Notes under the pieces: generated by a model
The model's database searches: none
Told to the model about the DNA's origin: nothing
What the model saw: only the letters and a program-made list of their open reading frames with translations
NCBI RefSeq assembly: GCF_030936135.1
Contig: NC_082620.1
Coordinates: 1,798,001-1,862,000 of the forward strand
Origin: Gavia stellata
Taxonomy: Eukaryota > Chordata > Aves > Gaviiformes > Gaviidae
Reading direction: 5' to 3'
DNA length: 64,000 bases
In this document: piece after piece, positions 6,346 through 38,500 of the stretch
Position numbering within the stretch: the first letter of the stretch is position 1
How the letters are laid out: every line of letters starts with the position of its first letter
Made by a program: the position numbers and the translations under genes

Positions 6346-9300
6346 CTATGGCGTTACGTGCCACCATTTGAAGGTGAAGGGCTGTCGCTGGACGTTGGTG
6401 CCGCAGCGGACCTCCCCAAGCCTGCCGTGGTAGGAGGCCACGTCCTCGAGGAAGCAGCAGTGTAGGCCCAGCGGCTCCAGGAGGGAGCTGGTCTGTCGCT
6501 CCAGGCAGCATTCGCCTCCCACCACGGGGCCGAAGGGTTTGGGGATGCCCAGATCCTTGGCCAGGACGATCATGGTGACCTGTGGGGTGACACAAGGGGA
6601 GCCCAGTAGCATCAGGACTGGCCTCTCCGATTGAGAAAGCCAAAGAATAGCCACTGGCCACCCTCCTCCATCAGCCTCCCCCCAAAATGGGGCATCAATG
6701 CCGCTTTTTGCAGCCGCCCTCCCCCAGGCCTCCAAATCCATCATCATTGTTCCCCTTTTTATCATTAAAACGCGCCCCACACCTTGCAATTTCACCACTT
6801 TGGAAGGTTTTCACCTCAAAACTACATAGTTTAACCCAACCGCAAGCGACACAAAGCCACGAAGTTGTGGCAGACCCAGGCTTATCCGAGCCTGGCTGGA
6901 GATATTTTCTTTTTCTGGGCAGCTGTAAATATTGTGCTTTTTTGGGACAAGTTTGGAGACTCATCCTGGCTGAATGAGCTGGTTTTTGGGGAGTACCCGA
7001 GGAGCGGGGACCCCCCTCACCATGTTGGGGAAGTATGGCACAGCTTTGCCCTGCTTGTCGAGCTTGAAGAGGGCCGGCAGGTCGACGATGTCCTCCTCCG
7101 TCAACCCCAGCTCCTTCTTGAGGACGTCCCTGTTCCAGTCGATGCAGCGCTGGAGGGGATGGAGAAGAGCAGGTCGAGGCGGGGGGACACAGGTGGGCAC
7201 GGTCCCCAAAACCATCTCATGCAGGAGGAGAGCCAAAATGCAACACCTCCCCTTAAGGGTTTGCACCACCCTGGGGTGGTTATTGCAAGAAATATGGATT
7301 ATTACGAGAAATATCGGCTATTACCTGGACATACTGATTCTGCTGCACCAGGATGTCGTTGGAAAGGACCTTGTTAATGGTGACCCGTTTTGTGTCTGTC
7401 CCCGAGTACCCTGCAAATGCAAACCCCCGTCAAAATGAAGCAGCGCTGGTAGAAGCCCATCTTAAAACAGGGCACAGAGATGGAAAAAAACCCCAAAATA
7501 CCGATTCCCTGAGCTTGGCATTCAGGCTGCCGGGAGTCACAGTTCTTAGTTTATTGGGAAACTAGGCGTGAGGAAAACCTCTGCTCATTGGAAAGAGCAT
7601 TGGAAAGGTCCTATCACCCATCTTCTTGCCCACAGGAGTTGTTAGCTCCTAAATGTCTCCACCCAGCTCCATCAAACCAGAGCTGCCACCTCCACCCCTT
7701 GTTTTGGGACAGCTAGGTCCCAGGCAGCTGGCAGTGACCCAGAGGGACCCGCAGAGGTATGGAGATCTTCCCCCGACCCCATTGCGGATGGATGATGTTC
7801 AAAACCACAATTAATGGATGCCCAAACTGGCAACCAAAATAATCATTGCCACAGGGAGGGAAGGGTGACATGAGAGCCCCGCTGTTGTCCCCATTCCATG
7901 CTGGAGCTCTGTTGGCATTTACAGAGAGGGTCCATCCCACCATGCAAGCATCCCCTCTATGCAGAGGGCTTTATCCCTCCCGTCCCACTCGCTTTCCCAA
8001 AATAGGGCTTGAGGAGGCTGGGTATGGTGGGCAGGCATCCCGCTTGCCAGCCGTGAAGGGCAACCGAGTGGGAAAAGGTCCCCATGTCCCCCCTGATACC
8101 CGCATGTCTGTCAGGCGCTGCCGCCCTCGGGCCGGCTGCTCTGCGGGCTGGCTCCGGCTGTCTCAGCCGACATCAAAGCTCGGCTGAAGTTGCCCGCTGT
8201 CCCCTTGCCTTTGAACATGGTGGCTTCGCCCTGGCCCTCCTTCTGCTTCTCCCGAAAGAGCTTGTAGCACGCTGCGGGGCTGGCCATCAGCATCCGAAAT
8301 CGCTGGGGCAAGATTTCGGGGAGAGAGAGCGGTCACCAAAAGTGCCTTATCCAAAGCCTTGGGGGACCTCAGGGGCTTATTTTTGCAAGGAACTTGAGAT
8401 GAAATTCTTAAAATTAGGCATTTTTGCTGTTATTTAGTGCCTTTTTTAATGTGGTGCTGAGGGGATATAGCTGAATGAGGGGCGGTGATTTACGCTGTTG
8501 GCAAATACCCACCAAACTGCCCTCGAGGGGTTAAACTGCTGCTGGGACAGGGAGGAAATCTGCAGCCTGGCTGCACCTGGGTCCAATCCTGCCCACCCCA
8601 GGTGGGGTATAAACCCCTGGCAGGGTGTTTGTTGAAGGTTTGGGTGAGCTGAGATGGTGAGTGAGGCTGCTGTTTAGGTTGGTGAGGTTTTTTTTTTGTT
8701 TCTTGGCTGGCACTGCAATGCAGGATGGGGGGAGGATGGAGCAAGTGAATAATCAGGCTCTTGACTTCCTCAGAAGAAGCCAAAAATCACTATTAAGCTA
8801 ATCCTGTGGGAATTGTGAATTTATTGGGTCTGAGCCCCATGTGTGTGTCCTGGCTTACTTTCCACCAGCAGAAATGGTCTCCTCAGTGGAGTGCAGGAGG
8901 CTGCTTGCTGCAGTCCTGATGGCATCTCTTATGGGGGCTTAGCACAGCCCTGGGGAGGGCAAAAGCACTGCACGGAGGGTTTGTGGGGGGTGTGTGTGCA
9001 TAAACAGTCTTTTTTCTGAACCATCCAGGTCAAGGCATGGTTTTGCCAGGGGGAAAAAAAGTCTTGTGTCAGAAGCAGTAAAAACCAGGACAGAGGAAAG
9101 AGCTAGCTTCTGAAAACACCTGGGAGATGCTGAGCAGCTGTGAGCCCTGGGCAGCCCATCTGAATACTGAGGTTTAAATTTCTTGGACTACCTTTACAGG
9201 CACCTTTTTTCTTCTATCTATGTTGATTATTAGCTCAGCAAGTCCCTTTTTGTGTTCAGAGCTCTCATTTTGGGGGCAGGGGTGAAAACCCAAGCAAATA

Positions 9301-12300
9301 CTGGCTGGGACTGTCAAAGAAATGAGCTCTGGGGTTTTCCCTAGGGGTGCCCCAAGGGGATTAGTATCTTGGAAGAGAAACCACAAAGTGGCTCGGGGTT
9401 TTGGGGTACCTTTGCGTCAGAGGTGGGCACAAAAGTGACGAACTCATTGACGTAGCCCACAGACAGCCAGTCGGAGTAGAGCTCCACGGGAGCCTGTACT
9501 TGCTGGGCATAGAGGAAATCCCGCACCACTCTGGTCATCCTCCGCCCTGCAGATCTGGGGGTGAAATACCCCCGAGAGAGGGAGTAAGTATTTATACATC
9601 AATATGTACATACACAAAAATTGCTCTCAAGACGGAGGAAAGAAAGAAGGGTGCAAATGTGAAGGCAGAGATTGGGTAGACCCACTCCATAGGGTACCAG
9701 ATTTGCAGCTGGTCAGGGAATGGCTAATTAAGGCCCTTAATATGATTTTTTTTTTAATGATATTTAGGGGAAATTATGGTTCCTTTGCTCCCAAACATGT
9801 GGGTTTCCCATCTCTTACGTGGGGAAGCTGCTGCCGATGAGGATCCTCCCCAGGGGATACTCCTTCCCTGCCACGGTCACGGGTGGGCTGACCTCCAGGT
9901 TGCCGAAGGAGTCGAGGCTGGCCTTGGCTTCAAAGAGGGGCTCTCTGCTCACGTAGCCAAAGTCAGGGCCCTGAGGAAAGAAAAATCACTGTGGGCTTTG
10001 CCCTGAGTCCCCCCTGCCTCCATGCCTTTGCTTTTATTCCTCCTGCTGGGCGCAGACCTGCTCCAGCGGGTAAAAATATCAAGAGTGAAACCTGCCCATG
10101 GATGGGGAGAGGCTAAAGGAAAGGCAAGAGGATAAAGGTCTCTGGGTCATCTGGGCTCAGTAATAAATGGCAGATGCCGGGGGTAGAGCTGGGGTGTTGA
10201 GCCGAGGAGAGATCTCTGCTATCCTGCAGCCAATGTTTAAGTGTCCACATTAAGATAATTGGGTGCTGGGGTAGCCCCGAAGCTGAGTTTCTGGATGGCT
10301 CTTGTCAATGTAGATGAACTTCGGCTCCTGAGGGTAAATCCACCCCAGGCATAAGAGCCATCTGAAGGGCTGTACTTCACTTAAATCCTAGTTAAGCCCT
10401 GATTTTCAGGACTTAACATATCTAGGATTTAAGGCATTGTGCATGCAGGGGTAATTAACCCTCAGTTGTGATGTGCCAGGGTCAAATGCCCAAGGGAGAG
10501 ATTGTAATGTTAAAAATAGGGCAAAAACGGTAGTGGTGGGACAAAAATCCTGCCTTGAACCTGTCCTTGCTCTCTGGTTCAAGTCAACAAGGGCTTGGTG
10601 CTCACGGCAGCCCCTGGGACAAGGTCAGGTATCTGTTGGGTTTGTATTAAATCCCAGTCACTTATTAGCGTTGGGTTTCTCTAGGGGTAAACCAAATATA
10701 CAGGTCAGTAAAAAGGAGCAGGGAGACCTGAGGGTGCATGGTTATGATCTAGAAGTTACTTTTTATTTTAATTGAGGGTGTTTGGAGAAGCAGGGAGCTG
10801 CTGCTGCTTTTCCCCAAGGCTCCCTGTGCATTTTTGGGGTGCATATCTGGAGGATGGCTGGGGGTCAGATCCTTTCCCTGGGTGCTGCGGGAGGGACTGA
10901 GCATGAAACACCTGCTCTCAGCTTATTTCAGTTTAATAAACCGCAGAGCTGGTATGGTTTCAACTGTCAAGGCGCTGGTTCATCCCAGGTTTGCGGGTCG
11001 CATCCAAGTCCTATCAGTTCCAGATTGATTTTGAGGGGCTAATTCCCTCTCGTCTCCTTTTTCCCTGGCGCGGGGTCCCAGGGGCTTAGGGCTTGGCCGG
11101 GGTGAGAGGAGGACCCGTGCGTGTTGTGTTTGGCTAAATAGTCCTAGCTGGAAAATGAGATTGGAAAGATAGGAGTGGGGATTAGGGGAGGCTTCAAAGC
11201 AGAAACTGGAGTATAATGTGTTAGCAGCTCCAAAGGGTGAAATTGCTTCTCTAAATATGAAGCAAAGCAATTCCTAAAGAGGGCAGATAGGAGCGGTTGC
11301 CCGGCTTATTTGCGAAGGAGCTGATCAGCGCGCTATTCCCATCCTGCCTGATGAATCCGGGACTGCATGTACTCATTTCAGGCATGAGAAACGATGTATT
11401 TCAGTGCTTTTGAAAGCGCTTAACCTTCCCCAAAGCGATGTGAGGCAAAAAAAAGTGAGCTGTCCTCTTCTCCCATTACTGTTGGAGAGAAGACCAGGGC
11501 TGAGGCTGCTGCCAGGGCCTGGCTGGGTGTATGGGCAGAGATTTGGTGGCTACTTGGGAATGTCCTGCCCTTTCTGCATGGTGATATCTCAAAGGGATCA
11601 TTCAAGCCATCTTTTTCCCATGCTTGTCTTCGCTGAGCTCTCCCAAAATGCCCTGGCTGAGGTCACAGCTCTCCCAGGCAGCTTTCTTTGCACACCCTAC
11701 CCGTGGCTGGCCCCTTGCCTTGGCAAAGAAGCCCCCCCGGGATGTTTTTGGCAGGTGGCTGCATCTTGCTCTCTTCCAAGCAAGTAAATTGACCCTCACA
11801 CTTTCCTTTCCTCTGCTTGGGAGCTGCTGCGTATTCACAGGCGCAGAGGAGGAAAGGGAAAACCAGCCCATTGCTTGGATATTCAGGGTGAAGAAATCCA
11901 CTCCTGTCCCAGAGCTTGGCAGGAGTCCTTTGTTCCTAGAGGCGTGAGCTCCTCCTTGCTCCTCTCATCCAGAACCTTCTGGATAAAAGGTTTTCCAGAT
12001 GGCTGGGATGTGGATTAGGCTCTGATCCTTGCTTTGAGGAGGGGTGAGGCTGTTGGTGTCCTCCCAGCTGGAAGTGGATGGGTGGTATCTCCATGCAGTA
12101 GCATGCAGAGGTGTTAAACTCTCATTTTTCAGGCAATTCATTGTACGGCCTCCAAGGAGCCAAATGCAAGTGGGATTTTTAGGAAAGGTTAAGCAGGTTA
12201 GGCATAAAAACCTTCAAGCTGCTCCTTGGGCAATGCAAGTGACTGTCCTGCTCTTACCAGCAGCTCCTTGATGGGGAATTCTTCCAGCCCTCCATCTCGA

Positions 12301-15300
12301 GGGGAGTCCAGCACCACCGGTAAGCTTTTGTGGGGAGCGTGGGTGTAGCCAAACTCAATCTCATCCTAAAAAAGGGAGGAAAACCTGCATGGGGCACATC
12401 AGCAGGGAGGGAAAGCTTTGCCCCCTCTCCAGTGCTCACTTACCTGCATCCAGCGGTCCCCACGGTTGATGTAGCCAAAGCAAACCTTCAGCTCACAGCC
12501 GGCCTTGTTCACCAGTTTTTTGATCTCCTTGATGAAGAGGTAGTTATCCTTCATGCTGGGAAAGTGGATGGCAGGAGGGAAGGGCATGAAGGGCTGCTGG
12601 AGGATGGATATTCCCCACAGGCAGCTGCCTTTCCCTCTGCCCATCACCTCCCCAGCCTGTCTTGGTGACCTCCAGGGAAACTGCAGGGCTGATGTTGATT
12701 TGGCTGGGAAGGCATCAACCCTTGGCCTTTACCTGCAGACGAAGACGTTCACCGGTGCCAAAGTGTTGGGGGTCATGATCCATGGTGCTACCCTGAACAC
12801 TACTGTGTCGGTGAAGACTGGTGTATGGGGGATACCCTGAGGGAGGCAAGCAGAAATCGGGGACTTTCCACACCCTGTTTACCACTATTCCCCCCAAATA
12901 CCCTACCCTTGAGGTCATTTTTGGGGTAAATTAATGGGGACATCTCTCCATTCAATCCCCATCCCCTTCTCCATGCCCCTCAGGCTGTGCACCCCTTCCG
13001 CGGAGCCCCCAGACCTCAGCCAGGGTCTCCAGGAGGCTGACATGGACGGAGACCAGCCCGGGGAAGGTATTGTCGGGAAAGCGGAGACCCTCGACGAAGA
13101 AGTCGAGCTCGGCGGCCCCACCAGTGTATTGCACAGTGTGGTACAGCTTCCTCCGGCCCAACACGTGGACGTAGCGCTGCCCGAAGAAGGGGTCTGCAAG
13201 AAGGGAAAGGTGGATGATTTCCAAAGTTTCAGTGGTGGTTTCCAACCTATTTTGCTTGTGTGCAAAGAAGTACCACAATCCCTCTGTGCTAGAGCTTCTC
13301 TGCCTCTGCAGGTGGATACAGCTTCATCTGGCAGAAGTACCTTAAAACAGGAGCTAAGGCAGTCGTGCCCAAGAAGGGTGGGGAAAAATGTCTCAGCGTG
13401 ATGGAGCAGTCAATGGGAAGACACTTTCATGGTGTTTCTGCCCTTGCAGCCCACTCTGACCTGCCATGGGATGGCAGTGCCACCAAACCCCCCACCAACA
13501 GACTGCCTCTGTATTGGAGGACAAGACCAAGCTACTTAATGGCAGGTTTCTGGGCTGGATGAGGGCTTTTGGTCCCAGGGAATAAATCACTCTGCCCACA
13601 ACAAGGAACAAGGAGGGGAAAATGTGTTGTAAAGCATGTTGCCATCATAGATCAAGCATCTGGGTGTCAGGACACATGGCTTTTTTTTGCTACTCCTTTG
13701 CTGGATGACCTTGGATAAATGACTTCATGGCCCTGTGCTTCTGGTTGTTAATCTCCAAAGTTTTCCAATTGAGAAGAGAGAATATTCAATGCCAGAAAAA
13801 CTTGGAGAAGGGATGCTGAGGGCATGATTTGCTTCAGAAGTGCCATTTGAAGAGCATGGAGAGGACAAGGTCAGAGATGGAAAGCAAAGAGCTTGCAGGG
13901 ATCTCAAAAGCACCACAGATGAGGAGGGAAGGAGGAGGTGAGGAAGGACTTACTCTGCATGTAAAAGACCCCAACTTTGTCAGCATCGGAGACAGGAATA
14001 TAGAGAACTATTTCATACCCCCGGGGCAGGCGCTGTGGCCCTTCGGTCCTCAAGACCATCCGAGACATGTCCAGCAAATCTGGGGTGCAAACAACAGAAA
14101 AAATTGGGTGATGGGTGATTGCACCATGCAGCTCTGGCCAGCTTGCATGCTCCCTCCTGGGGTTTGCATCTCCCATGCCAAGAAATCTGCTCTTTCCTTG
14201 CTACCAGCCTTTGCAAGCTGGAAAAACAACCTGCGGTCCTGCTAGCAAAGCTTGTGGCTTGTGCTTTGAAACAAATGCTTTTTTCCGCTCCTGCCCCCCG
14301 CCCCAGCCCTGGCACAGCCAGTCCGTGGCCTCAAAAAGCCAATGGGCACTGGCTCCGCGTGGTTTTAGTTTTCCAGGAACAGGCGGGTGTATTCCTGGCT
14401 GCCGGCCGTATGCCTCGCCCTAAGCTCCTTTCACCCGCATGAAGCATCCCTGGGCCAAGCTCTGCCGTCAGTGGCACCTCTGCTATTTTTCTGGCCGTGC
14501 TTCATGCCCCTGCTTGACCGCAATTAGTTTGCATGAGGTAAAAAAAAAAAAAATTCCCATGTGGGAAGCTTACTCAGCAGCTTGGTGGAGAGCAGGTCAT
14601 GGGCAGCCAGTTCCCAAGCAAAATTTCATCTCCAAAAAGGTTAAAGAGGGGGAATAATGGAGCATTTTTTGCTTTATATGATTTTTTTTTTTTGAAGCTG
14701 TGTTACCTTCTTTGCTGAATACCCTTCCATCATCGCAGTCTGATGCCGGAGTGAAGGGGGACTCCTTGTCACAGCTGACGAGCAGGATGGCCCCGTGTCC
14801 CTCGGGACCCCAGGTCCAGCTTGCCTAAAACACCCCGCTGGGGCTTAGCGAGCTCAGGCTCTTGCAAGCCCATGGACTTTCTGTGCAGTGGAAGAGGCTG
14901 TATTACCTTGTTGGGGTTGTTCTTTTCCACCACACCATCCCGATCCGCGTCGACGTCCAGAGAGATCCCTGGATGGGCAGATCCTGCCATCATCCCAAGG
15001 TATGGCAAGGTTGGGTGGGTGCAAAAGCCCCCCAGACCCAGCAAACCTGGGTCCATCTCTGCCCTCACATCAACCAAGGGACCGAAGGGTTGAAGAGGGA
15101 TTGCTGTGTTGCAGAAGCCTTTGTACTCACCGATGCCGGTGAGGAAGACCCCGGCTTGGTTGATGGGCTGCCCTCCCTCTGCGTAAAAGCTGACTGTTAC
15201 CTGCAAACCCCCAAATCCCTGGTTGGGGAAGGATGCTCTCCCTCTGTGGGGGTCCCACACCCCCAGTACCCCACTTCTTACCTTGTTATCGTTAACCTCA

Positions 15301-17040
15301 GCGCTGGCCCGGCTCATGCTGAACCTCAGGACTGTCCCCTCATCCAGTGGCCACCGTGTCCCGCTGCTGGGGGCTGACCCGACCTCTGCTTGGCCCCGGC
15401 ACACCACCTCCACGCTCACCCCCTCAGTGTGCTTCACGCCGAAGGAGGCTGCCCCGGCCGGGGCCGCCCTGCCAAAAGCATGCCATATTTTTAGAGGTTT
15501 GCACCGAAAACACCCGCTTCTCAATGCAATTAATTTCACTGCCCAAAACACAGCCAAGACTGGGCACGCTGGCGTCTCCACGCTCACCGCCGGCACCTTT
15601 CTGCCCTTTCCTCCCTGCCTGGGAACGCTAGAAGTGTCTTTTATTTTAGGGCAGAACACACTATTTTAGCAAAATGAGTCTATTTTGTAGCCTTCGGTGC
15701 AGATTACGATCTATAATTATCACAGCCAAAGCACTCAGCGCCGCTGGAACCAAACTTGGGTTTGCACTTCAATAGTGAAATCCCTGTTTATTTTCCAGCC
15801 GAGGCAAACCTGATATTTAACAGCTCATCGTAACAGCGTGGCAACCCAGCTGAGAGACTTTACCATGGGAAAGTCTAATTTTCAGGGTGATTTTATCCAA
15901 TCCCGAAGTAGCTGGTGTTGCACTGCTCCCAGTCTGATGTGCCCTTGCTTTTCTAAAGCTGTGCTGTGCATCCCCTTTTCCTCTCCTGGCTCCTTGTCCC
16001 TAATTTCCCCGTCTTTCCAGTGTTATTATTTTTGGGATCCTTACAGCTCCCGAGGTGTAGGCTCCCTTTGAGCATGTGTGCTTCTGACACCTGAGAGCTC
16101 GCACTGTATCACCATTACAGCATCATTTATTGGGTTTCGGGATGCCGGTGGCCCTGCCAAACCCACACCGGGAAGGGGGGTCGAGAGGAAATCTGAGTGC
16201 TTGTTTGCTGCTGCCCGGGCATTTCTTAAATTGTTAAATTACATTTAATTATGCATGGAAAAACTGGTTTTGTTTCCTTGTTTCTGGGTTTTGGGAATCC
16301 CACCGGGAGGAGATTTGACCTGGAGAGATGCCAAATGAGTTGTAACTGCGCTGCTTGGCTTGAATATTGAGGGTGAGATTTGCAAAAGCAGCAAAGACCA
16401 GAATTAACCATGAAATGAGCTTTTAAACTTTTTCCTTTGGGGAAATAATTATCTTGAAGTACAGCATTCGGTTTGTTTTAGGGGAGCGGGGTTGGTGTTG
16501 TGGGGACTTGCATGTTTTCCCAGGACACTGCTTGGTCAATTAGATCTTGTTTTCCTTCCCTCTCCCAGCTGCATCCCCTCCTTTGCAGTCCATCCCCGTG
16601 GTTCCTGCTCATCCCTCCGCTCTCCAGCAGCTTTCCGAGATGACACTGAATCTGCTGACTGCAAATGGATCAAAGCCATCGCCGTCGCAGACCTGCGGTA
16701 AATACCGTATCGTGCAAATGCGGATGCTTGAAGCTTTCCTGGGACTTCTGCAGATTTGCAAAGCCCAGGGAGGATTTTGCCCACAAATTGCATTAAATCA
16801 CAGAGTCAGGGCTGTGGGTTTTGGGGGAGTAGAAGGAAAAACGAGGAGGGGGGATTTGCAGAAGGATAAACAGGGGGGTAAAGGCAAGGAGAGAGGTGGA
16901 GGTGCAGAAATGGAGGGAGGAAAGGGAGCGTTGGGGCATCCCACTCACCTGTAGACGTCGGCGGAGATGTGGGTGCCCAGCACACACAGGGCCTCGATGC
17001 GGTTCCCGTGCTGTAGCCGGAGCGTGCGGTCCCCTGGCAT
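6346..17040 (-). CDS. PADI2: PADI2, peptidylarginine deiminase 2, complete; two catalytic residues replaced
   Basis: Type-2 peptidylarginine deiminase; the family uses calcium to convert protein arginine to citrulline. Sixteen coding exons (minus): 16949-17040, 15282-15468, 15131-15200, 14907-14968, 14707-14824, 13954-14079, 13015-13193, 12733-12836, 12444-12555, 12258-12365, 9819-9970, 9410-9554, 8209-8302, 7325-7410, 7021-7149 and 6346-6579. Total 1,998 nt, 665 residues, the same length as human PADI2, with no stop. Calcium-loop acids are kept ([17 protein letters not shown]), as are the active-site aspartate (DRWMQDE) and nucleophile (RCGTNV). However, GHVDEF, which carries the catalytic His and Asp, reads GYVNEF in exon 12, and the residue before the nucleophile is Arg instead of His. 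Exon 13 has a GC donor (AAAG|GCAAGG) and exon 7 a weak GTCTGG donor. It is probably catalytically dead though structurally intact. No TATA box is visible upstream. Confidence 0.95.
7411..12257 (-). other. PADI2 introns 10-13
   Basis: The larger PADI2 introns lie at 9971-12257 (intron 10), 9555-9818, 8303-9409 and 7411-8208, between exons 10 and 14. No array, RNA gene or recognisable coding sequence was found beyond the PADI2 exons themselves. Confidence 0.65.
15469..16948 (-). other. PADI2 intron 1
   Basis: A 1.48 kb intron between exons 1 and 2, AT-richer than the exons. I saw no recognisable coding sequence, tandem array or structured RNA. Confidence 0.65.
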
Positions 17041-23557: not shown

Positions 23558-26500
23558 ATGCCCCAGCGTCACGTTGTGCAGATGTCCACCAGCCATGCCA
23601 GCTACAGCGTCTGCGTGTTGGGTACCGAGGTCTTCCTTGATACGCGCCGGTAAGGCTTGGAATCGGGGTATGCCCATCATTTTCCATAGGGCTGATGGGT
23701 TTTGTGGGAGCCCAATGGTGGTTTTGCTCTTCATTTGGAGGAGAAATGGGTGCTAGGGGGGAAATCAGAGCTCATTTTGAGCCCACATCATGAGTTCATC
23801 CAAGGATTTGGCAAGCTTTTTTTGGTGCACGGGGGACACGTCCTGCTGGGTCTGTTTTAGGGGACGATGTGCCACGGGGAGCTGCACCCAAAGGAGGGAT
23901 GTCGGCTCTGGCAAACGCGAGGCGTCAAAGCGTAGCCGAGCCATGACGATTTCAAGGCAAAGCCCATGCACACCCCGGCTGAGCGGGATCTATTTCTGGC
24001 TGTGAAAACATTAGGCAAGAGCAATTCAAGACGAGCAACTTGGCCAGAGCTAAAATGGAGTAAAGAATAAAATGTGTGGCTCAGGCAGAAAAAATCCACC
24101 AGCGGGATTGGCATGGGCGATTTCACAAAAAGAGATTCTTCTGGCATTAAATACAGGGGTTGCTTTATTGGCCAGATACGAGGCTGTATTTACCCTGCTG
24201 TTACGTTGTCGTTATTTAATAAATCACGTTTATAATGATAGAGACTACAGGACAAGCCGGTCAGCATCGCATCCGGGGCAATTATTGGGGTTGTGCATTG
24301 GAGCCGGGCCAGGATGTGCCGTCGTCCCCCTGAAGGGCTTCAGATTGAGCTAAAAAAGTATTATTTTTCCCCTCAGCCTGATGTCAATATATAAACCCTA
24401 TTATTTGCAATTTTTTTCTGTCTTTGGACTCAAAGCAAGCTCAGTCCCGTTTAAACATGGGGCCTGAGCCCCAAAATGGGCTGATTTGGCTCCTCAGTAG
24501 CAAAATCTGAGCTTTGGTCCAAAAAAGCAGATGGCTGATGTTCTTTCAAGTAAAAAAATGGGATCATTTTGTTCCTGGAGAGCACTGGCCGGGGGGAACT
24601 CGGTGATGGATGTGTCAAGCTTTGACTGTGGTTTGGGCTGTTTTGGGGCAGGAAATGGAGCACGGTGGGAAGCCGGTGGCGATGCTGAGGTGTGAAGGCT
24701 GTAAAATCAGAGCAAATAGACCCAAATTTGAGAAGTCACAGCGTGCAACAGCATGCAGGTGGATTTACGACACTGCATGATGTTAAATACGAGGGGTGAC
24801 AAGCGAGATGATGCTTTAATCTCCCCTTACAAGCTGCTGCAGGCACCAGGGATGCCATGCCAAGAGCAACACTGGGAATAAATCTCTTCTGTGTTGGTTT
24901 TTCTTTTTTGTTGCCTTCATTGTTAAAATTTACCACCCTGTCCCTTCTCGCGTGCGGCCGGGGAGGCTGGCTCCTGACGGCAGACAGGTCGGAGCACTGG
25001 TGCTCCTGGGATGGAGGTGCTGGGGCTGTAATGAGCAGGTAGGCAGCACTTCAAAGGCGAGGGATGTCATGCAGGTGGGGTGCGAGTTCTCCACACTCGG
25101 ATTCAGGCTCCGCTCCAGTTTGGGCATCTCCTGGGTCAGGGTATGGTCCTGTGATAACCATCTCCCCAGATGGTTGACATCAAAAATTGTCCTGGCTCTT
25201 TGTCGGGGTTTTGTTGTGGGATGCTGAAATTTTGGGGGTTTTCTTGCTGTTGTGGAGGGAGGTTGGATGCCCAAACTTCAGCTACTTGCAATCTAGGCTT
25301 AACCACAGACAGACGTGCCGAAGCTCCAGTGGGAGCTCTGCTTGCTCAACACCACCACAGAGATAATACATATAAAATTCAGACGACGCATTTCATCACC
25401 CGAAGATGGTTTCTGAGTCCTTTCCACCCAGTTAAGGCTGCATTTAAATTCCGGGTTCAAATATTTGGCTCCACAGAGGAGAACAGGAGGGACAGCTTGG
25501 TCTACAACCCAACGCTGCTCTCTGTTTCAGATCTACCCCCAAAGGTGCCACGTCATTCGATGTCCATGCCACCTCCGCGGTTACGGTCCACATCATCCAC
25601 AGCCCTATGACAAAACCCATGATTAACTCCAGATGGCCCCTGGATCCCGATATAGAGGTTGTAGTGACCATTGATGTCACCAGCAGAACCGTCAATGACA
25701 ATAAGGTTAGTTGCTTTTTATGCACTGAAACTGGAAAAATAAGTCAAATTTTCCAGGAAAGAAGGGAGGATTATGGGCAGGCTCAAGCATTTCTAGGTAG
25801 TGCTGACATCAGGCTCATTTCCATGGAGAAAACTCAAACTCAAAAAGAATTGTGTAATTATCGTGTACGAAAAATGAAACTAAGAAGGAGAAGGAGATCA
25901 CATTTTGTGCCCTAAATATGAGGTAGCGGTGGTTGCAAAAGCTGGTGTCAGAAACTCCATGCCAGGCGACAAAAATACTCCAACCTTAGCTTTTTCCATG
26001 CCTGTTTTTGTGCTGAAGTAGGCAGAAATGGTTCGGCTGAACTATGATTAATGGAGAATGGCTTGGATGAACCCTCCAAGAGCTTGTTGTGTAGCGTTGG
26101 TTGGTCAACCCAACGAGTAGAAAGACCTACTCAGCATGACGGGACATGGGACTTGGGTCATGATCTGGTGATGTCTTCGCAGGTTAAGATTTCGTACTAC
26201 GGACGGGAAGGCAATGAGCTTTCGGTGGCTTGGTTGTATCTCACCTGCGTAGGTAGGTATTACAGCAACACTTGTCCAAACCCGGCCAACCCTTTCTGAT
26301 GCCAAGATCTAGCTGGGTTCATGGGATGGGAGTTAAGTGGGGGGCGCGGGCTGCCCATCTGCAATGTGCAATGAAGATTTGGGTGTTGACTGATGCTGAC
26401 AAGCAAAAGGGAAATAATTAAAATGTTATTATGCTGCCTTATATGGTGCAAAAAAGACACAGGCTGGGCCGTGTCCCCACCCAACGCACGCACCGAGCAT

Positions 26501-29500
26501 CCTCCTCCGCTTGCCAAGACCATTGCGTTGGTGGAAGAGGATCCAAAGGAGACCATCTCACCCAACTTTGCCTAGCGTCCCCCTCCTCAACCTCCGTTGC
26601 AGCTAGTGGAGAGGAATAGGCACCAAAGTGTAGTTGTCTGACCTATTTTAGAAGTTTAGGATGAGATGAATCATTCCCTTGAAATGCCTATTTTCCTCTG
26701 CTGACTACAAAGGGAGTCTAGACAACCAGTCTGGATGCAGAGCCTTCCACTTGGATAGAATAATTACCCCAAATTTGGGATTTTCTAAAGTGTTCACATG
26801 ACAGACCTGTGTCCTTAAGTCATGCATATGCCTCCCAAAATTGCACCTGAAGAGGCTGATGGTTTCCCATGTCCCATGACTGATGGGCTCCGCTGGAGCC
26901 ATCCGGGGCCACCGCAGTCCGCAGGGCTTTCACCTTACAAATGCTCTTCGTTTGCTTAGATATAGGGCTTAATTTCCAGCTTCTCCATGTCCTCCTCTCT
27001 GCATCAAGGAGAAGGACGATCTCCACTTCAGTGCTTCTGTTTTCCACACGCCTTGTATCCCATTTGGAGGAGTATCTGTATTAAGACAGGCTTAATACAG
27101 ATTTAAGTAGGGTTTAGATGAGGTTGCTGGTAAACCTCTGCTTTGTTGCAGCAGAGGCAGAGATTTGGGACAAGAAGAGCTCTTTAAAGGAAAGCCCTTC
27201 TGAAACGTTGCATCGACCCTAGTAATTACTTAGGTGTCTGCTCACCCATGGTGAAAAGACTTTCATGCCTCCACCGTGTTTCAGCTTCACAAAAAACACT
27301 TGAAATTGGTGAAAGCAAAAAATATGCCATGAAGTGGGTACGTCCCTGCTGGGGGAACCAAGATGGGAGAAGATAGCTGGAGACCAAAGGGGGAAAGCCA
27401 TGAAAAAGCCATCGGGTTGGCTTTTCTATCAGCAGTTTGTTGGAGACGTTGGGTCTGGGGCAGCTTTGGGGTGTGAAGGTGGGGTTGGTGTTGGATGACT
27501 CATGGCTTGTGCCAAGGATGAGCCCAAAATGCCACCGAGAGCTCGTTCCCTGGCCAGTGGCTTCCTTCTCTCTTGATGTTTCAGATATATCCCTGGACGT
27601 GGACTTGAGCCGTAATGGCAGAGTGAAGAGCAAAGGGAAGGACAAGGTAATGAGAAGCTTTGCTGTAGGCAATGTACGGCGGGTCAACGCAGGGTGCAGC
27701 CGTTTGCAGACTCTTCCCCGAAAATCTCCAGGAGGGAGAGGGACTTGGGTGGTGTCGCTGGTGTCTGAATTAGAGAAAATAACATGGCAAATTCTCAACC
27801 TACTAATTGAGGAGGAAAAGAGTTTATTTTCTTATTCTGTGCCAAAATCTCCTGCCCCTCCAGTCCAGCCCCAAGGTTCATATCGGAGAAAATACTCTGC
27901 TTTCTTTTATTTTCTTTCTTTTTTTCCTTTTTGGACTTGAAACATGGCACTAAATGAGTCAGCTTCAAGTTTTGCAGACAGCAAGAGATTCACCCCTTTG
28001 GCAACAAATCTGCATATGCCCAAGCACTTACACCCGGGTAATTAGCTGCAGCCCAATCGGCAGCGCAAATTGTACATCGAGATGAGATGCACTTCTAGAA
28101 ATGGTGTAGTGTTGTCCAGATGAGGCCTGGCAGATACTTTCTGGCTTCTTAGAAGATAAGATCTTTTTGAAATAGTCTTTACTGGGCCTGCTAGAAGCTG
28201 AGGTTAGGAAATTTAGTGGCTTGAAAGCATCACTGCTTTCTCCCCACCAGCTTTGACAGCATGTTGTGGGTTGTCCTCCAAGTGTGGCCGTGGGATTTTC
28301 CCTGGTCCAGGAGGAGGCTGGGATGGGGGAAATCTTGCTCCCATCCCCTTTGGGTGCTTCTCCTCCAGGCCAAGTGGACGTGGGGTCCTGATGGGCAAGG
28401 CGCCGTGCTGCTTGTCAACTGCGACCGGGACAGCCCCGGCGCGGCGGGGACAGACAGCGGTCAGGTGGACATACGGACCTCTGCAGGTAAGGTGTCATCA
28501 GCAGCCTGAGGGGAACCAAAAGATCTCACCGGGGTGTTTCCCACTTGCGACACCTCCATCCCCTCTCTCTACGTCCCCTCTTTCCATCTTTTCCCCGCTG
28601 TAGACCTTCAGGACATGTCCGTCATGCTGCTGCGGACTCAAGGTCCCAGCGCTATCTTTGCTGAGTACCAGGTGGTCCTGCATGTCCCCGAATCGGACGC
28701 GGATAAAGTGCGGGTTTTCCACGCTATCCGTGAGTATTTCTTCCTTCTTTCCCAGATATCCATGCATGACCCCGAGGTGGGTGAACCCTAGTTTTTTTTG
28801 TTCATCGTGGCTAAGGGCTGGGTACCTCCAATTGCTGGAAACACTCATTTATCCCCAAAGATCCTCTGCTATTCTAGAAGATGGGAAAAATCAAGGGAAA
28901 AAGGATAAAAAAAGGCTTTTCTCAGCGGGGTCGCTGAAATGCTGACATTTCCACGGGGCAGATAACCCCTACATGGCTCCCGGCACCTTTTTGGCACGGG
29001 TGATGACCCAGCCACCAAAGCAGCCCATCTCGTCAGGCAGCGCGTTTTACCTTTGAACACCCCAGTAACTGGATCCCCAGCAGCTCCCTGCTGAAAATCA
29101 GGTCAGGGAACCCAAGTATATCATTAGATGCTTAACTCGAGCCACGCACCTTCAAAAGGGTTGGTCCTGAGGGTACAGAGTCCCCTTTGTACGAGGAAGA
29201 TGAAGTGTGTTCCCCAGAGAAGAGGAGGCACACCCGCTCCTCTGCAAACCACGCTGGCATCAGCCACCTCCTTGCTGGTGCCTCCTTCCAGCCCGGTGGA
29301 CAGGTTGGTCACGCCGTCTTGGGTTGGGTATTTCGGTGTTTCTCCAGGGAGTGACTCACACCCCCACTACAAACCCGTGTTGGGGCCGAACAAGCTCTCC
29401 TACGTGCTGGACCATGTTGGTGGTGGAGAAAACACCTTCTACGTTGAAGGGTTGGCTTTCCCCGATGTTGGCTTCTCCGGGTTGGTTTCCTTCAGTGCCA

Positions 29501-32500
29501 GCTTGCTGGAGGTCCCCCATAAGGTACGTGGGGTTTGCCCCGTCCCCTGCAAAGTCCCCCAGCGGTGGGGTTTTCAACTGCCGCTCCCTGACTTTTCACC
29601 CCTCGCAGAATTCGCCGGGCACCCCGATTTTCACGGATACGGTGGTTTTCCGTGTGGCGCCCTGGATAATGACGCCCAACACCCAGCAGCCTATGGAGGT
29701 TTTTGTCTGCAGGTAGGAGGGACGTCAACCCATGGCTCTGCTACCTTGGGGGACTCTCCAAGGAGGAGCTTTTCACCTTTCTTTGCTAAGTAGCAGCTAT
29801 AGGGCGAGCCAGGCTTTATGCATGCTATACTGGAGCCTAATATTTGGGTAGGGAGCCTGCTGGCACTGCTGCACTCACTGCAACTCCAAGGAGAAAGGCT
29901 GGAGCACCCTCTCCAGGAGCTAGCCGTGTGCAGGACTATTACCCAGCGCATTTAGGAATGAGGAATGCGCTGCACGGTTGGGGGTGCTTCTCGTGTTCCC
30001 CCCTTGCAGCCTTCGCTCCTTCCTCTCTCCCCAGCATCCAGCAGGGCTCAGACTCCAACGAAGTCTTTCTGGAAGGTATCCAGGTCCTGCTGAAGAAAGC
30101 CAACTGCAAGCTGACCATCTGCTCGGAGGTGGAAACCCGCAGTGACCGCTGGATCCAGGTCATCAATCGATGCTTGTAATATGCGGCTCTTCTGGCCCCT
30201 TACAGGCTCCTGGGACATGTAGGGTGTCACCGCCATTGCTGACACCCCTGGGAGGGACTAGCTGTGTTGCTTGGGGAAGCACCTAGATGCTGAGAGGTGA
30301 ACCAGGCAACCATGAACTAAAGCACGGGGAAATGCTGCTGGTGGTGGCAAGTAGCACAGACAGGGATGTTGTCCAGGATCCCCGTTACGAGAGGGTCCCC
30401 ATTGCAAGAGGCACCCCACAGTGCATCTCAAAGAGGACATGGCGTGTGCCAGGTGAACGTGCCGTGTGCTCCCCGCAGCGTGCCCAAGCCCTCCCGTCCC
30501 TTCCTCACTCCCCTGCCCGTGGTGGCCACGTGTTTCTTCCCCGGGGGTGACCTGTGCCAGGTTCCGCGGTGCCGGGTGGGGTGTCACCCCCTGGAAGAGC
30601 AAGGCAGTTGCCTCCCTTGGGGTTAAGGGCAACAGCCAGGCTTTGCCAGGTTTGCCCAATTTCCTGCTCCACCCTCACCACACACCTCGCCGAGATGGCT
30701 ATCACCCTTCCAGGAGCCTTCCTCCTCCTCTTCCTTCTCTTCTTCCCACAACAGGATGAGCTGGAGTTCGGCTATGTGGAAGCACCACATAAGACCTTCC
30801 CCGTCGTCTTTGACTCTCCCAGGAACAGAGGCTTGAAAGATTTTGCTTTTAAAAAGATCCTGGTGCGTCATTGCATTGCCAACCCCCTTTTTTGCCCCCA
30901 AAATCCCCCACCTGGGGGTCCCTGTCACCACTCCCCTCTTCCCTAGGGCCCCGATTTTGGCTACGTGACCCGTGAGCCCCCCGGGAATGACATCTCCAGC
31001 CTCGACTCCTTTGGCAACCTGGATGTCAGCCCACCAGTGACGGTGCGAGGGAAGGAGTATCCCCTGGGCCGGATCCTGATTGGCAGCCCCCTACCTTGGT
31101 GAGATGGGGGGGGGGGCTCGAGCCCTCCCTCTGGGATGCAGGGAAGCAACAAAAATCCTTGCATGAGAAAGCGTTGCACCCTTCAGAGTGGAAATTTGGG
31201 GCCAGTTCCCATCAAAGTGGAAGTTTGAGGCTAGTTCCCATCAAAGTGGAAATTTGTGGCCAGTTCCCATCAAATCCCAGCTTTAACGTGCATCATTATT
31301 CCCTTGTCCCTTACAAAATCCTGTCACTGTTCCGATTTTTACCCCCTCCCAAACCGCTGGTGCTTTTGCTCCGATCCTACAGTGCTGTAAGCATCCAGGC
31401 TTATTTAATCTTTTTTCCTTGTTAAAAGGAAAAGCAGGGGAATCCAGGAAAGGGTAAAATCCTGAATAACTGGAAATTGTTTTGCTCTGGGCAGGCAGTG
31501 CTAGGCAGCCCTGCAGGAACAACAGCGCCCTGCAAAATCCTCCACAAAGGAGGTTATTTTCCTGGAAAAATAACAACGGGGACGAATCCAGATGGGGTTT
31601 GGTCCAGGGTAAGAAACGGCATGCTCCGACCCCAGCCCTGCTGCAAGCTGGGGGTCTTGCTTTGGTTACAGCGGCGGGTAAATGGCATTTTCCCAGCCTC
31701 GCCGGGACCGTAATTATCCCTTATTACAAGAAGTTTAATTAATGTTTTCCCAGCCTGCTCCTGTCTGTCTAAGAAAACTTCACTCCCGCGCAAAGTGCTG
31801 CGTAAGGAGTGATTTAAGATTCACAGGGATGGGGGAAATTAAATCCAAAGGTGCCTGAGCAGAACAGGGAATGTAATGCACAGATGCCTATAGATATATA
31901 CAGCCTATATATAAATATATATTATATTAATATAAATATAGGTATAGTATATATAATATCGACATATTAACATAAAATATAGATGTATTAATATATTATA
32001 TTAATAGATAATATAAATATATTTTTATATTAATATACTATATTAATATGTAATGTACACACACAAGTATATTATATATTAATATATATAATATAGACAT
32101 ATATTACTCAGACTGTTTCCAGCCTCTTCCCGGTGTTTCCCATTAAAATGGGATGTGTGGACGCATCTTCTCCCCTTGGCATGATGTTCGGGGGAAGGAT
32201 GGGAGTACATCTTGCGGAGGGGTGTGATGGCCGCCCGCTTTCTCCTCCTGTCTCTGCTCCCCAGGGCCTCCGGCCGGCGGATGTCCAAGGCGGTCAGGGA
32301 TTTTCTTTACGCCCAGAAAGTGCAGGCGCCGGTGGAGATTTACTCGGAGTGGCTGAACGTGGGCCACGTGGATGAATTCCTCACTTTCGTCCCCGCTTAT
32401 GATAGGAAGGTACCGGTCCCTGGAGCAATCTCCGCTCCCGCATGGGGAGTCTTCTGAAAATGCAAAAAAACCCAAGCCCCTTTTTGCAATCGCTCATCCT

Positions 32501-33883
32501 CCCCGCGGGGGGCTGGATGATGCACCTTCTTCTGGGGTGGCTTCCTTGGAAAACAGCGAGTCCCTGGGTGGCATCCCATGCGTCCTGCGGTGGTGACATC
32601 CCTTGCACCCTGCAACACCTCGGGCTGGGTTTGGAGTCAGCGTGGTGTGTCTCGGCAGGATGCTGGGATAAAATATCCCGCCAACAGCAAAGCATGAACC
32701 CCTGGGCTGTCTCCCGCAGGGTTTCCGGCTCCTCTTGGCCAGCCCCAATGCCTGCTACAAGCTCTTCAAGGAGAAGCAGAGGCAGGGCCACGGGGAAGCC
32801 ACGCAGCTCGTCGGTAAGGGAGTGGGCGAGGGCATCCCTGCGGTGTGGTGGGGACCACGGGCATCCCTTGTCAGTGTCCCTTACCGCTCTGCTCCGGTCC
32901 CCACGCAGGGCTGAAGGGCACTGAGAGGAGGAGCATCGACGAGATCCTGGCGGATGAGTCTCTGAGGAATGACAACAAGCATGTGCAGGTGGGTCTTTGC
33001 ACCCATGGGTTTGGGTGGATTCGCTCTCCTCGCTTGTGCATCATTGCTGGGTAATTTTGGGGTGTGGGGAGCGTTTTTAGAGATCCTGGGAAAGAGGAAG
33101 AAACGTCAGCGTGGGTTGCACTGTGCAGTGTGAAAGCAGGTGGGCAAGAAGAGCAGCCATGAAGGAGCCAGGCACCTTTGGGTGCTGGGTCACCCCAGCC
33201 CGTTGTCCTGCTGGGAGATGACTGCAGAGGTGTCAAAACCAAAGGAAGGAGGTTCCTGAGGTTGGGGATGGGTTCGGGAGGTTGCTCAGGGCGATGGGAT
33301 GAGATGCAATGGAGTGGGTGAGGATCTCGGCAGGATGCAGTGGGGCACCCAGGGGTCCGTGCATGGGATGTGGGGGGTCGGGATGGCCTGGGGTGGCAAT
33401 TCCAGGTCCCCCCTCTCCGCAGCGCTGCATTGACTGGAACCGCGACCTCCTGAAGCAGGAGCTGGGCCTGAGCGAGCAGGACATCATCGACATTCCCCAG
33501 CTCTTCATCCTGAAGGGCTCCCGCGCGGATGCCCTCTTCCCAGACATGGTGAGACCCCCGGCACCTCCTCCCTTCCCACCCTTCCATCCACACCTGATGC
33601 AAACACACCTTTTGGGTGGAAAACACTGATTTTTTTGGTCCGGCTTCAGGTGAACATGCTGGTGCTGGGCAGGCACCTGGGCATCCCCAAGCCCTTTGGA
33701 CCGCTGGTGGGTGGGCAGTGCTGCCTGGAGGAGCGGGTGCGGGCGCTGCTGGAGCCCCTGGGCCTTACCTGCACCTTCATCGACGACTACTTCTCCTACC
33801 ACGTCCTCTCTGGTGATGTCCACTGTGGCACCAATGTCCGTCGTAAGCCCTTCGCCTTCAAATGGTGGCACATGGTGCCCTGA
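23558..33883 (+). CDS. PADI1: PADI1, peptidylarginine deiminase 1, complete
   Basis: Calcium-dependent protein-arginine deiminase, named PADI1 from its place directly after PADI2 on the opposite strand. Sixteen exons: 23558-23649, 25531-25705, 26183-26252, 27585-27646, 28369-28486, 28604-28729, 29348-29523, 29609-29712, 30035-30158, 30755-30862, 30947-31098, 32265-32409, 32720-32813, 32909-32988, 33423-33548 and 33650-33883. Total 1,986 nt, 661 residues. Exons 1-8 encode the two immunoglobulin-like N-terminal subdomains; exons 9-16 encode the catalytic alpha/beta propeller. The catalytic set is intact: DRWIQDE, GHVDEF and VHCGTNV; the substrate arginines lie in FDSPRNRG. The exon 4 calcium loop ([12 protein letters not shown]) has few acids, as in human PADI1. 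The exon 9 donor is weak (GTCATC). The last exon is almost identical to that of PADI3. Family identity is certain; the paralogue number rests on synteny. Confidence 0.94.
23650..27584 (+). other. PADI1 introns 1-3
   Basis: Introns at 23650-25530, 25706-26182 and 26253-27584 are AT-richer than the exons. I saw no repeat array, RNA gene or extra coding exon. Confidence 0.65.
31178..31275. repeat. Triplicated about 31-bp unit in PADI1 intron 11
   Basis: Three tandem copies of a unit containing GTGGAAATTTG and CCAGTTCCCATCAAA begin just after PADI1 exon 11. Confidence 0.85.
31870..32110. repeat. AT-rich microsatellite (TATATTAA type) in PADI1 intron 11
   Basis: About 240 bp of nearly pure A and T, with irregular TATATTAATATA and AAATATA units and one CACACA interruption. 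It is the only strongly AT-rich tract in the PADI cluster. Confidence 0.9.
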
Positions 33884-35551: not shown

Positions 35552-38500
35552 ATGGCCCAGCAGCGCCGCGTCCAGCTCTCAACCCAGCGTCCCACCAGCA
35601 CCGTCTGCGTGCTGGGCACTGAGCTCTCCCTGGACGTCTGCGGGTAAGCGGCCGTGACGCAGGGGGGAAAAAAATAAAATCTGCTTTTTTATTATTTATT
35701 TATTTTATCCCCTTAATCAAGCTGATCAAAATAGCTCAGGGAGGGGTGGGGGCGATGCTGCTGCTTGGGGTGGTTTTACCGGGGGATGCCGAGCCCCGGG
35801 AGGAAGGGGATGCTCCAAATCACGATGCAGCGGCCGGGCGGTGACCTCTCCAAGGGGGATGTTGCAGTTTTTGGGGTGCCGAAAGTCACACCCCCACACC
35901 CCAGGAGCTTTAAGGGATGCCTCCGGCTGAGGTTCACATCCCAGCCAGGGGCTGCTGCGTCCTGCTGCAAAATGGAAATATTTCCCTGTTCCGGGGGAAT
36001 GTGGAGAGTGAAACCGCTGCGGCGCTGCTGGCCGGGGCGTCACCTCCCGGCACCGGGTGTTTTGGCTGCCTCCTTGGCCCCTGCCCAACTTCAAGTGCTT
36101 TTCGGCAGCAGGTTTTGCTTTTTGCTTCCTTAAAGCCCAGCTCAAGCAGCAGCTTAGTTGGGTTTTTTTCATTTTATCGCATGCATCCAAAGCCACACAC
36201 CATCCCATCGCTGCTGACAGCATCCTGTCCTCTCCAGCTGCCCCCGGGGGTGGGTTTTTCCCCTCCACCCTGGGGAGGGATCCGTGCTTCCCTCCTCGCA
36301 GGTCAGGAATTGTGCTCCTTGGCCCATCGCCCGTGGCCTCTTGCACCGGGGCGGAGCGATGCGAGCTGCAGCCTGCCCGATCGATCGTCGCAGCTTTGCT
36401 TTGCTCTTAAGGCGATGCGCTCAGTCAGGACTCGCTGCCGCGGGGCGAAACACGAGTATTTGGGCACCTCCATGCCACAACACCCTCCCAAACAGCTCCG
36501 GGATTCTGCTGCGATGGGATATTGCAGGCTTTGTCGCAATTGCATATTGTAGGACTTGTTGCACGTTGCAGGGTTCGTTGCAATTCAATATTTGGTGCAT
36601 GTTGCAGGGTTTATCACAATTAATATTGTGGGAATTGTTGCATTTTTCATCATTTGATGCAACCGAACGTTGCCAGATATGGTCTGTATCACAGGGTTTG
36701 TTGCAATTTATATTGCAAGATTTGTTTCTATTGCCTTTTGCAGGATTTGTTGCCTCTGGCGTGATTAGTTCTAATCGCCTTTTGCAGGATTTGTTGTAAT
36801 TGCCTTTTACAGGATTTGCTGTAATCGTGTTGTGCAGGATTTGCTGCGTATTGAAGGAATTGTTGCAACTGCAATTTGCAGGATTTATTGCATTTTGTGG
36901 GATTTATTGCAACTGCACGGTGCAGGATTTGTTGCGTATTGAAGAACTTGTTGCAACGGCGTATTGCAGGATTCGTTGCATTTTGCAGGACTTGATGCAA
37001 ATGCCTTTTGCAGGATTTGCTGCATATTGAAGGATTTATTGCAATTGCATTTTGTGGGATTAATTGCATTTTGCGGGATTAATTGCATTTTGCACGACTT
37101 GTTGCAATTGCACGTTGCGGGATGTCTTGCACGTTGCAGGATTTCTTGCATGTGGCAGGAGTTGCATCACCTGCAGATGTCCGCACATTATATTATTCTG
37201 GCAACGCCCCCCCACCTGAGGCTCTCGCCGGGCTTTCCCCCGCTCCAGGTCTGCACCCAAAGATGCCGTCGCCTTCCACGTGCAGGGGACGCCGGGCGTG
37301 AAGCTCTACGTGGTGCACGAGACGCAGAGCATCAAGTTGCCCTCCAGCGTGTGCCGCTGGCCCCTGGCCGCCGGCGCCGAGGTGCTGCTGGCCATGGATG
37401 CCCTCAGCAAGGATGTGGGTGATGAAAAGGTGGGTGCTGGTGCCCCAGCAGGATCCAGCCCTTCTTTGCATGGTGGCGAGCACCCGCTCCTTGTTGCAGG
37501 TCAGGATTTCTTATTTCGGGGAGGCCGGCGGGGTGCCTGTGGGCAGAGCCATGCTGTACCTCACCTGCGTGGGTAAGTGAGGGGGACACACACCCCCAAA
37601 TCGTGGCACCGGTGGGGATGCTCCCCCCCCAGCATCCCTCTCCCCGCAGAGGTCTCGCTGGACGCCGACACCAGCCGCAGCGGGGCAGCGAGCAGAACGC
37701 TGCTGGATAAGGTATAAAGGGGGAGTGGGACCCCCCCGGGACCACCGTGGGATGGAGGCGGTGATGGCCGGTGGCCCCCAGCCCCGTTTTACTCCCCATG
37801 CACACACACAGGCGACGTGGACGTGGGGTCCCGACGGGCACGGGGCCATCCTGCTGGTGAACTGTGACCGTGACGACCCCAAAGCCGAGACGCCGGATAA
37901 CCGCGACACCGCTATCCGCTCCTACGCTGGTACCGGCACATCCCATACAAGAACACTCTATTTTCCTATCTTTTTCCCCAAAATTTTCCTTTCTTACACC
38001 CCTTTTCCACCCCAGACCTGAAGGACATGTCGCAGATGGTGCTGTGGACCCGAGGTCCCCGCACCATCTTCACCGGCCACCGCCTCCTTCTCCACGTGGA
38101 CTTCAGCGACGCTGATAAAGTCGGCGTTTTCTACGGCGGCAGTGAGTGCCTGACGCTGGGGTTTTGGGGGGGACAGAGACCCCAAATTATAGGGGTTCAA
38201 GCAAAACGCAGCAGAGCGGGTACCGCTTCTGCAGCATCCGACCTACATCCCATGGGGGGGGTTTATCTGATGCACTGGGTGATTTTGCTCGCCGCCATGC
38301 TCTCTCCATGGGATCAAAAATGCCTTTTTTGCAAGATTTTAGCAAAAAAATGGAGCTGAAGCGGTGCAGCAAAGGGGTCGGCTGTTTAAGGGGGTTGCAC
38401 GGTGCTTGCACCCGTAGACAGCGTCGCGCTGGAGGAGTACAAACACGTGCTGGGGGGCTCGAAGCTTGCCTACACCGTCAAACCCAGCCGGCATCAAGAG

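Follow-up and report, generated by a model that had tools for sequence, protein, structure and literature searches.

The window, by which the whole analysed stretch of 64,000 nucleotides from Gavia stellata is meant, carries PADI1, PADI2 and PADI3. PADI2 lies on the minus strand, opposite in orientation to PADI1 and PADI3 on the plus strand, and in a splice model it extends from 17040 to 6349 with 16 exons that encode 665 amino acids in frame and without a stop. The neighbouring gene is probably SDHB, and in the human order PADI2 is placed between SDHB and PADI1 and head to head with the latter. The features are the following, with the PADI2 exons according to the splice model:

16949..17040, minus strand: PADI2 exon 1, start codon, residues 1-30
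15282..15468, minus strand: PADI2 exon 2
15131..15200, minus strand: PADI2 exon 3
14907..14968, minus strand: PADI2 exon 4, loop with the presumed Ca6 ligands D123, D125, D127 and E131
14707..14824, minus strand: PADI2 exon 5, Ca3-5 ligands including D156, E158, D166 and D169; N154 replaced by Ser
13954..14079, minus strand: PADI2 exon 6, D177 and D180
13015..13193, minus strand: PADI2 exon 7, donor GTCTGG
12733..12836, minus strand: PADI2 exon 8
12444..12555, minus strand: PADI2 exon 9, W348 and Q350
12258..12365, minus strand: PADI2 exon 10, catalytic D351, and E352, E354, D370, R373 and D374, all retained
9819..9970, minus strand: PADI2 exon 11, D389 and E412
9410..9554, minus strand: PADI2 exon 12, GYVNEF in place of GHVDEF
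9454-9452, minus strand: PADI2 codon 471, TAC (Tyr), the catalytic His in active PADs
9448-9446, minus strand: PADI2 codon 473, AAT (Asn), the substrate-binding Asp in active PADs
8209..8302, minus strand: PADI2 exon 13, GC donor (AAAG|GCAAGG) of a GC-AG intron
7325..7410, minus strand: PADI2 exon 14
7021..7149, minus strand: PADI2 exon 15
6349..6579, minus strand: PADI2 exon 16, nucleophile C647 retained, H646 replaced by Arg, followed by the stop TAG at 6348-6346
23558..33883, plus strand: PADI1, 16 exons, catalytic residues intact, control paralogue
35552..41691, plus strand: PADI3, 16 exons, catalytic residues intact, control paralogue

The window PADI2 matches PF08526, PF08527 and PF03068 far over the Pfam cut-offs, its best PDB matches are PADI2 with 1118 bits (741 bits for the next paralogue), and it is 94% identical to the PADI2 of Pluvialis. 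The alignment with human PADI2 is nearly end to end, and the numbering (471, 473) is the same. Like the active mammalian PADI2 (PDB 4n20 series), the protein has 665 amino acids, three PAD domains, D351 and C647, but it differs from it by H471Y, D473N, N154S and H646R. As described in a review, PADs employ a Cys and a His for catalysis and two Asp that stabilize the substrate (PMC8788905); Cys647 and Asp351 are found in the window PADI2, and His471 and Asp473 are not. The preliminary description had already pointed to GYVNEF in exon 12 and to GHVDEF in the neighbouring PADI1 and PADI3, and both the splice model and the codons bear this out, with an AG acceptor and a GT donor flanking exon 12 (9554-9410 on the minus strand). 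Its further statement that frame, splice sites, calcium loop and nucleophile are intact stands for the frame, for C647 and for most ligands, but not for N154, a Ca3 ligand that corresponds to N153 of PAD4 and is Ser here, nor for His646, which adjoins the nucleophile and is Arg. Besides D351 and C647, the residues W348, Q350, E352, E354, D370, R373, D374 and V469 are retained, and 17 of the 18 side-chain calcium ligand positions examined (Ca1-Ca6; in part mapped from PAD4 in PMC3559651) agree with the family, N154S being the exception. Splice sites are GT-AG throughout, save the GC donor after exon 13, and the donors of exons 7 (GTCTGG) and 12 (GTACCC) are weak-looking by eye.

A second intact PADI2 elsewhere in the genome, which had been named as speaking against an inactive gene, was searched for in the 1.32-Gb assembly with its 1185 contigs and not found. 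All 20 matches to PF03068 fall in the window, and with the plover PADI2 protein as query all 35 scored matches lie in PADI1, PADI2 and PADI3 of the window, the scoring having covered the best candidates of an assembly that may be incomplete. A second functional copy was rejected, as every scored match is at the window locus. With two of four catalytic residues altered, an intact gene and no second copy found in the assembly, the earlier suggestion of a preserved yet probably inactive PADI2 is supported.

The same residues have been altered in other birds. Among the best 120 of 1766 homologues found with the spliced window PADI2, 67 are not from birds (two without organism name), and all 66 of these that cover the motif have His471 and Asp473, the remaining one being an isoform that lacks the exon. 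Both residues are also retained in all four palaeognaths listed (ostrich, cassowary, two tinamous). The neognaths among the listed matches, counted with the window and reduced to a single row per species, comprise 37 species, of which 27 have lost Asp473 and 16 His471. The motif reads GHVNEF in fowl, ducks and hummingbird, GHVSEF with Ser473 in Penelope, GQVNEF in the swift, GYINEF in the rifleman, GNVNEF in manakin and songbirds, and GKVNEF in Catharus, so that Tyr, Asn, Gln and Lys all occur at residue 471 in place of the His. Chicken (P0018), zebra finch (P0026) and crow (P0012) share D473N with the window, and the songbirds have also changed H471; the window loss is counted as independent of theirs, and its Tyr471 is as in the rifleman. 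GHVDEF is retained in 10 of the 37 neognaths, which represent eight lineages (plover, seriema, sandgrouse, barbet, woodpecker, hornbill, two owls, crane and parrot), and the loss is therefore not universal. The comparison of the exon 12 region over birds and reptiles that the preliminary description had proposed thus reveals a recurrent loss in neognaths and an intact motif in palaeognaths and non-birds. A bird model from Geospiza fortis (P0089), whose 1122 amino acids join two PADI genes, both with GHVDEF, is probably an annotation fusion and was left out of the PADI2 alignment.

On the PADI2 gene tree of 52 rows, parsimony requires a minimum of four losses of D473 and three of H471, and the same minima are obtained on a gene tree rebuilt without residues 466-476 and on an assumed species tree. 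The lineages of D473 loss are the Galloanserae, the swifts and hummingbirds, the passerines and the lineage of the window; three losses are still needed when the window lineage is forced beside swifts and hummingbirds. An ancestral Asn473 with reversions to Asp was rejected, since on our reading of the counts it is absent from the histories with the fewest changes. The homologues were clustered at 90% identity, and the plover cluster of 113 sequences hides most waterbird PADI2, which leaves a range of ages for the window's own loss. As judged from these alignments, the window PADI2 is one sample of a repeated loss of catalytic residues in neognaths with retention of the gene. The codon before 473 ends in C in the window PADI2 (GTC AAT), whereas PADI1 and PADI3 have GTG GAT, and with this C a CpG would have been present in an ancestor with GTC GAT. 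Mutability could thus explain a recurrent Asn473 once constraint had weakened, which would temper claims of adaptive convergence.

Catalytic loss as a general trait of bird PADIs was rejected, as PADI1 and PADI3 retain His and Asp. In the window, PADI1 (plus strand, GGCCACGTGGATGAA) and PADI3 (plus strand, GGCCACGTGGATGAG) have GHVDEF. From the best 120 matches listed for each, 56 full-length rows of PADI1 and 53 of PADI3 were obtained in addition to the window's own; among these, His471 and Asp473 are present in 57/57 PADI1, and in PADI3 His471 in 54/54 and Asp473 in 53/54. Restricted to full-length bird rows, again listed rows plus window, His and Asp are found in 38/38 PADI1 and Cys647 in 37/38 (odd row P0203), and for PADI3 the counts are 46/46 for His, 45/46 for Asp and 44/46 for Cys647 (odd rows P0349 and P0355). 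When rows of all lengths are included (112 and 127), P0149, P0152, P0174, P0193, P0236, P0349 and P0355 are off-pattern. Six of these look like misaligned or mis-spliced exons, and P0349, a PADI3-like protein of Rhea pennata with GHVNEF and without the catalytic Cys, may be real and possibly represents a decayed palaeognath PADI3. The best protein matches of the window are avian; its PADI1 is 96% identical to the stork and hamerkop proteins and PADI3 97% to that of a shearwater (listed rows), and the window branches of both are short, so that a position among the core waterbirds is likely.

The two control genes have peculiarities of their own. Their last coding exons, which carry the catalytic Cys (33650-33883 in PADI1, 41458-41691 in PADI3), are 97% identical in DNA, and the other 15 exon pairs 55-78%. 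Of ten other birds in which the last 77 amino acids of the two proteins were compared, six (Heliangelus, Upupa, Calypte, Taeniopygia, Dromaius and Hemiprocne) have 99-100% identity between PADI1 and PADI3 within the species and 87-96% to the window copies; in the remaining four birds PADI1 and PADI3 share 82-94% in this part, and in the alligator 79%. This pattern suggests a concerted evolution of the last exons by gene conversion. In and after PADI3 there are dense tandem repeats (40491-41204, 45649-47047, 48719-49970, 50456-52567, 53188-54588, 55126-56955, 57911-59043 and 59708-60182), a density that would fit a GC-rich bird microchromosome.

Damage to neognath PADI2 is not confined to the motif. 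R373Q occurs in all nine readable Galloanserae as well as in hummingbird, parrot and both owls. Several of these birds also have Thr, Met, Leu or Ala for V469, as do swift, crane and some songbirds, and N154 is altered in nearly all neognath rows listed, the sandgrouse excepted. Where neognath rows can be read at Lys640 they have Gly or another residue, against Lys in 25 of 27 outgroup rows; His646 has become Arg in many neognaths and is His in all 27 outgroup rows. The crane has D351E and V469A, and in the hornbill (Buceros) several calcium ligands are altered, with one gene model each; some other models have further ligand changes as well. In human PAD4, the kcat is 0.12 per second for R372Q and 0.8, 0.1 and 0.04 for V469A, V469L and V469T, against 11.7 per second in the wild type (PMC5314407, Table 1), and N153A has 0.3 versus 13.3 (PMC3559651). 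In the light of these kinetics, the PADI2 of owls and parrots may be impaired although GHVDEF is retained. Changed family-invariant sites are more frequent in the active-site segments than elsewhere in all neognaths (12/34 versus 21/147, Fisher p 0.012) and in songbirds (6/34 versus 7/147, p 0.018), with 3/34 versus 4/147 in the window alone (p 0.12), 5/34 versus 10/147 in Galloanserae (p 0.16) and 2/34 versus 7/147 in four motif-intact Neoaves (p 0.68); the segments were picked by us around known catalytic residues, and the test is thus supportive only. An AlphaFold2 model of crow PADI2 was too poor (pLDDT 56) and was set aside.

It is fairly likely that the window PADI2 is an intact gene for a protein incapable of deimination, that such a loss is recurrent in neognaths, and that the protein is kept for a non-catalytic use. 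The window gene, the sole PADI2 found in the assembly, is presumably translated; its Tyr471 would be unable to serve as the catalytic His, and Asn473 would be unable to form the carboxylate pair that grips the substrate guanidinium. Constraint on PADI2 catalysis may have weakened early in Neognathae, with PADI1 and PADI3 retaining their catalytic residues, and neognath lineages would then have altered His471, Asp473, Arg373 or Val469 separately. The protein would have been kept since its fold, with most calcium sites, has a non-catalytic use, the most likely one being a calcium-responsive binding or partner role (binding of substrate or chromatin, or pairing with another PADI). We infer a loss of PADI2 activity from the residues and, for the window species, a retained function, while the nature of the replacement function, a calcium-responsive binding or partner role, is a guess. 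In fowl, ducks and hummingbird, where Asn473 occurs without a change of the His, weak activity might be left.

As the main alternative, PADI2 may be redundant with PADI1 and PADI3 and in early pseudogene decay, the active-site changes being the first visible damage, and evolutionary rates bear on this. They were expressed as the ratio of the PADI2 protein distance to the mean of PADI1 and PADI3 (PADI1 alone for the lizard and echidna pairs), with poorly aligned stretches masked and some species represented by a relative for one gene. The ratio is 0.42-0.60 in eight pairs of turtles, crocodilian, lizard, echidna, ostrich and emu/cassowary, 0.72-0.92 between crocodilian and neognaths, 0.95-1.08 between ostrich and neognaths, 1.1-1.9 between the window and other Neoaves, 1.64 for hummingbird versus swift, and 0.95-1.23 among crow, manakin and rifleman. 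Tinamou pairs reach 1.20-1.46 despite an intact motif, and speed alone therefore does not mark catalytic loss. The end branches of the window are 0.033 for PADI2, 0.015 for PADI1 and 0.011 for PADI3 (separate trees with different taxa), so that its PADI2 has been two to three times as fast as its paralogues, which, like the GC donor, the two weak-looking donors and the ligand changes in Buceros and some other models, is compatible with decay. All 16 exons are free of frame breaks, which speaks against it, but the intact frame is weak evidence because in a neutral simulation (substitutions only, no indels) about 18% of 665-codon frames are still without a stop at the divergence of the window branch (about 6% amino-acid change), and 0.7% at 0.10 changes per site (81% identity).

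More weight is carried by songbirds, in which both residues are gone. Ten pairs from five songbird lineages have a ratio of 0.38-0.71, with mean protein distances of 0.047 for PADI2, 0.057 for PADI1 and 0.130 for PADI3, and the crow PADI2 shares 94-95% identity with those of four other songbirds. Because PADI2 is here about as slow as PADI1 and slower than PADI3 in spite of the double loss, songbird PADI2 argues for a retained non-catalytic function, and the concentration of its changed invariant sites in the active-site segments likewise speaks against decay. Within fowl, the altered PADI2 differs a little less than PADI1 between quail, grouse and pheasant, but between fowl and ducks it differs more (0.133-0.139 for PADI2, 0.072-0.084 for PADI1), and between rifleman, manakin and crow the distances are 0.155-0.174 for PADI2 and 0.060-0.107 for PADI1. 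We read this as an early burst in PADI2, apparently followed by strong constraint in songbirds and within fowl. Between the pseudoenzyme and the early decay that the preliminary description had left side by side, the strongly conserved altered protein of songbirds leans to retained function, and the window branch fits both; a loss of catalytic residues in a conserved protein holds by protein distances for songbirds. Early decay is on the whole unlikely, and in many birds PADI2 probably has a function other than catalysis.

It is much less likely still that Tyr/Asn or Asn/Asn at 471/473 supports a slow or changed catalysis. The conserved D351, C647 and most calcium ligands could let binding and the nucleophile persist, and some lineages change D473 and not H471, but the review cited above (PMC8788905) assigns catalysis to the Cys and this His, residue 471 has become Tyr, Asn, Gln or Lys and no single new residue, and changes of Arg372 or Val469 each severely lower PAD4 activity (PMC5314407). 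An error in sequencing or assembly, or the mismapping of a paralogue, is highly improbable with a single locus, an intact frame and the same two residues altered in unrelated bird assemblies, and GYVNEF, as far as can be checked in the sequences, does not appear to be an artefact. A-to-I editing, by which the first base of AAT would be read as G and Asp473 restored in transcripts, would be compatible with the recurring Asn but can practically be dismissed, as ADAR does not convert TAC into CAC, so that His471 is beyond such restoring, and as Penelope has Ser473.

PADI2 is generally regarded as a broadly expressed and as the most conserved deiminase. In a seabird study, PAD2-like bands were detected by antibody, and PAD2 is called the phylogenetically most conserved form (PMC7168935). 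In a 2021 paper, the PADI catalytic residues are described as fully conserved, with a figure built on six metazoan sequences; this fails for chicken PADI2 (P0018) because it has Gln373, Thr469 and Asn473. The literature searched, mostly outside subscription journals, yielded no account of a PADI2 that has lost catalysis in birds. The family has an inactive member in PADI6, which, according to two papers (PMC11402830, PMC10542454), is inactive in vitro, has been suggested to have a structural role in oocytes and embryos, and is essential without known catalysis. The window PADI2 would resemble it as a catalytically inactive member of the same family, but in the reverse way: PADI6 lacks the nucleophilic Cys position, no longer binds calcium and retains His and Asps, whereas Cys647 and most calcium ligands are present in the window PADI2, which thus is not a pseudo-deiminase of the PADI6 type.

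A stronger version can be put forward only tentatively, namely that on at least four independent occasions neognath PADI2 became a pseudoenzyme that is conserved, calcium-responsive and essential in a new role, that the loss of catalysis was favoured and not merely tolerated, and that chicken and songbirds citrullinate by PADI1 and PADI3 only. If PADI2 has no catalytic activity in birds such as chicken, ducks and songbirds, a PAD2 antibody signal in birds does not report citrullinating activity, and PAD inhibitors in chick work would hit other isozymes. Birds would then offer a natural experiment in which the catalytic and the non-catalytic roles of PADI2 can be told apart, and the repeated loss of one active site with retention of the gene would be a replicated test of how pseudoenzymes originate.
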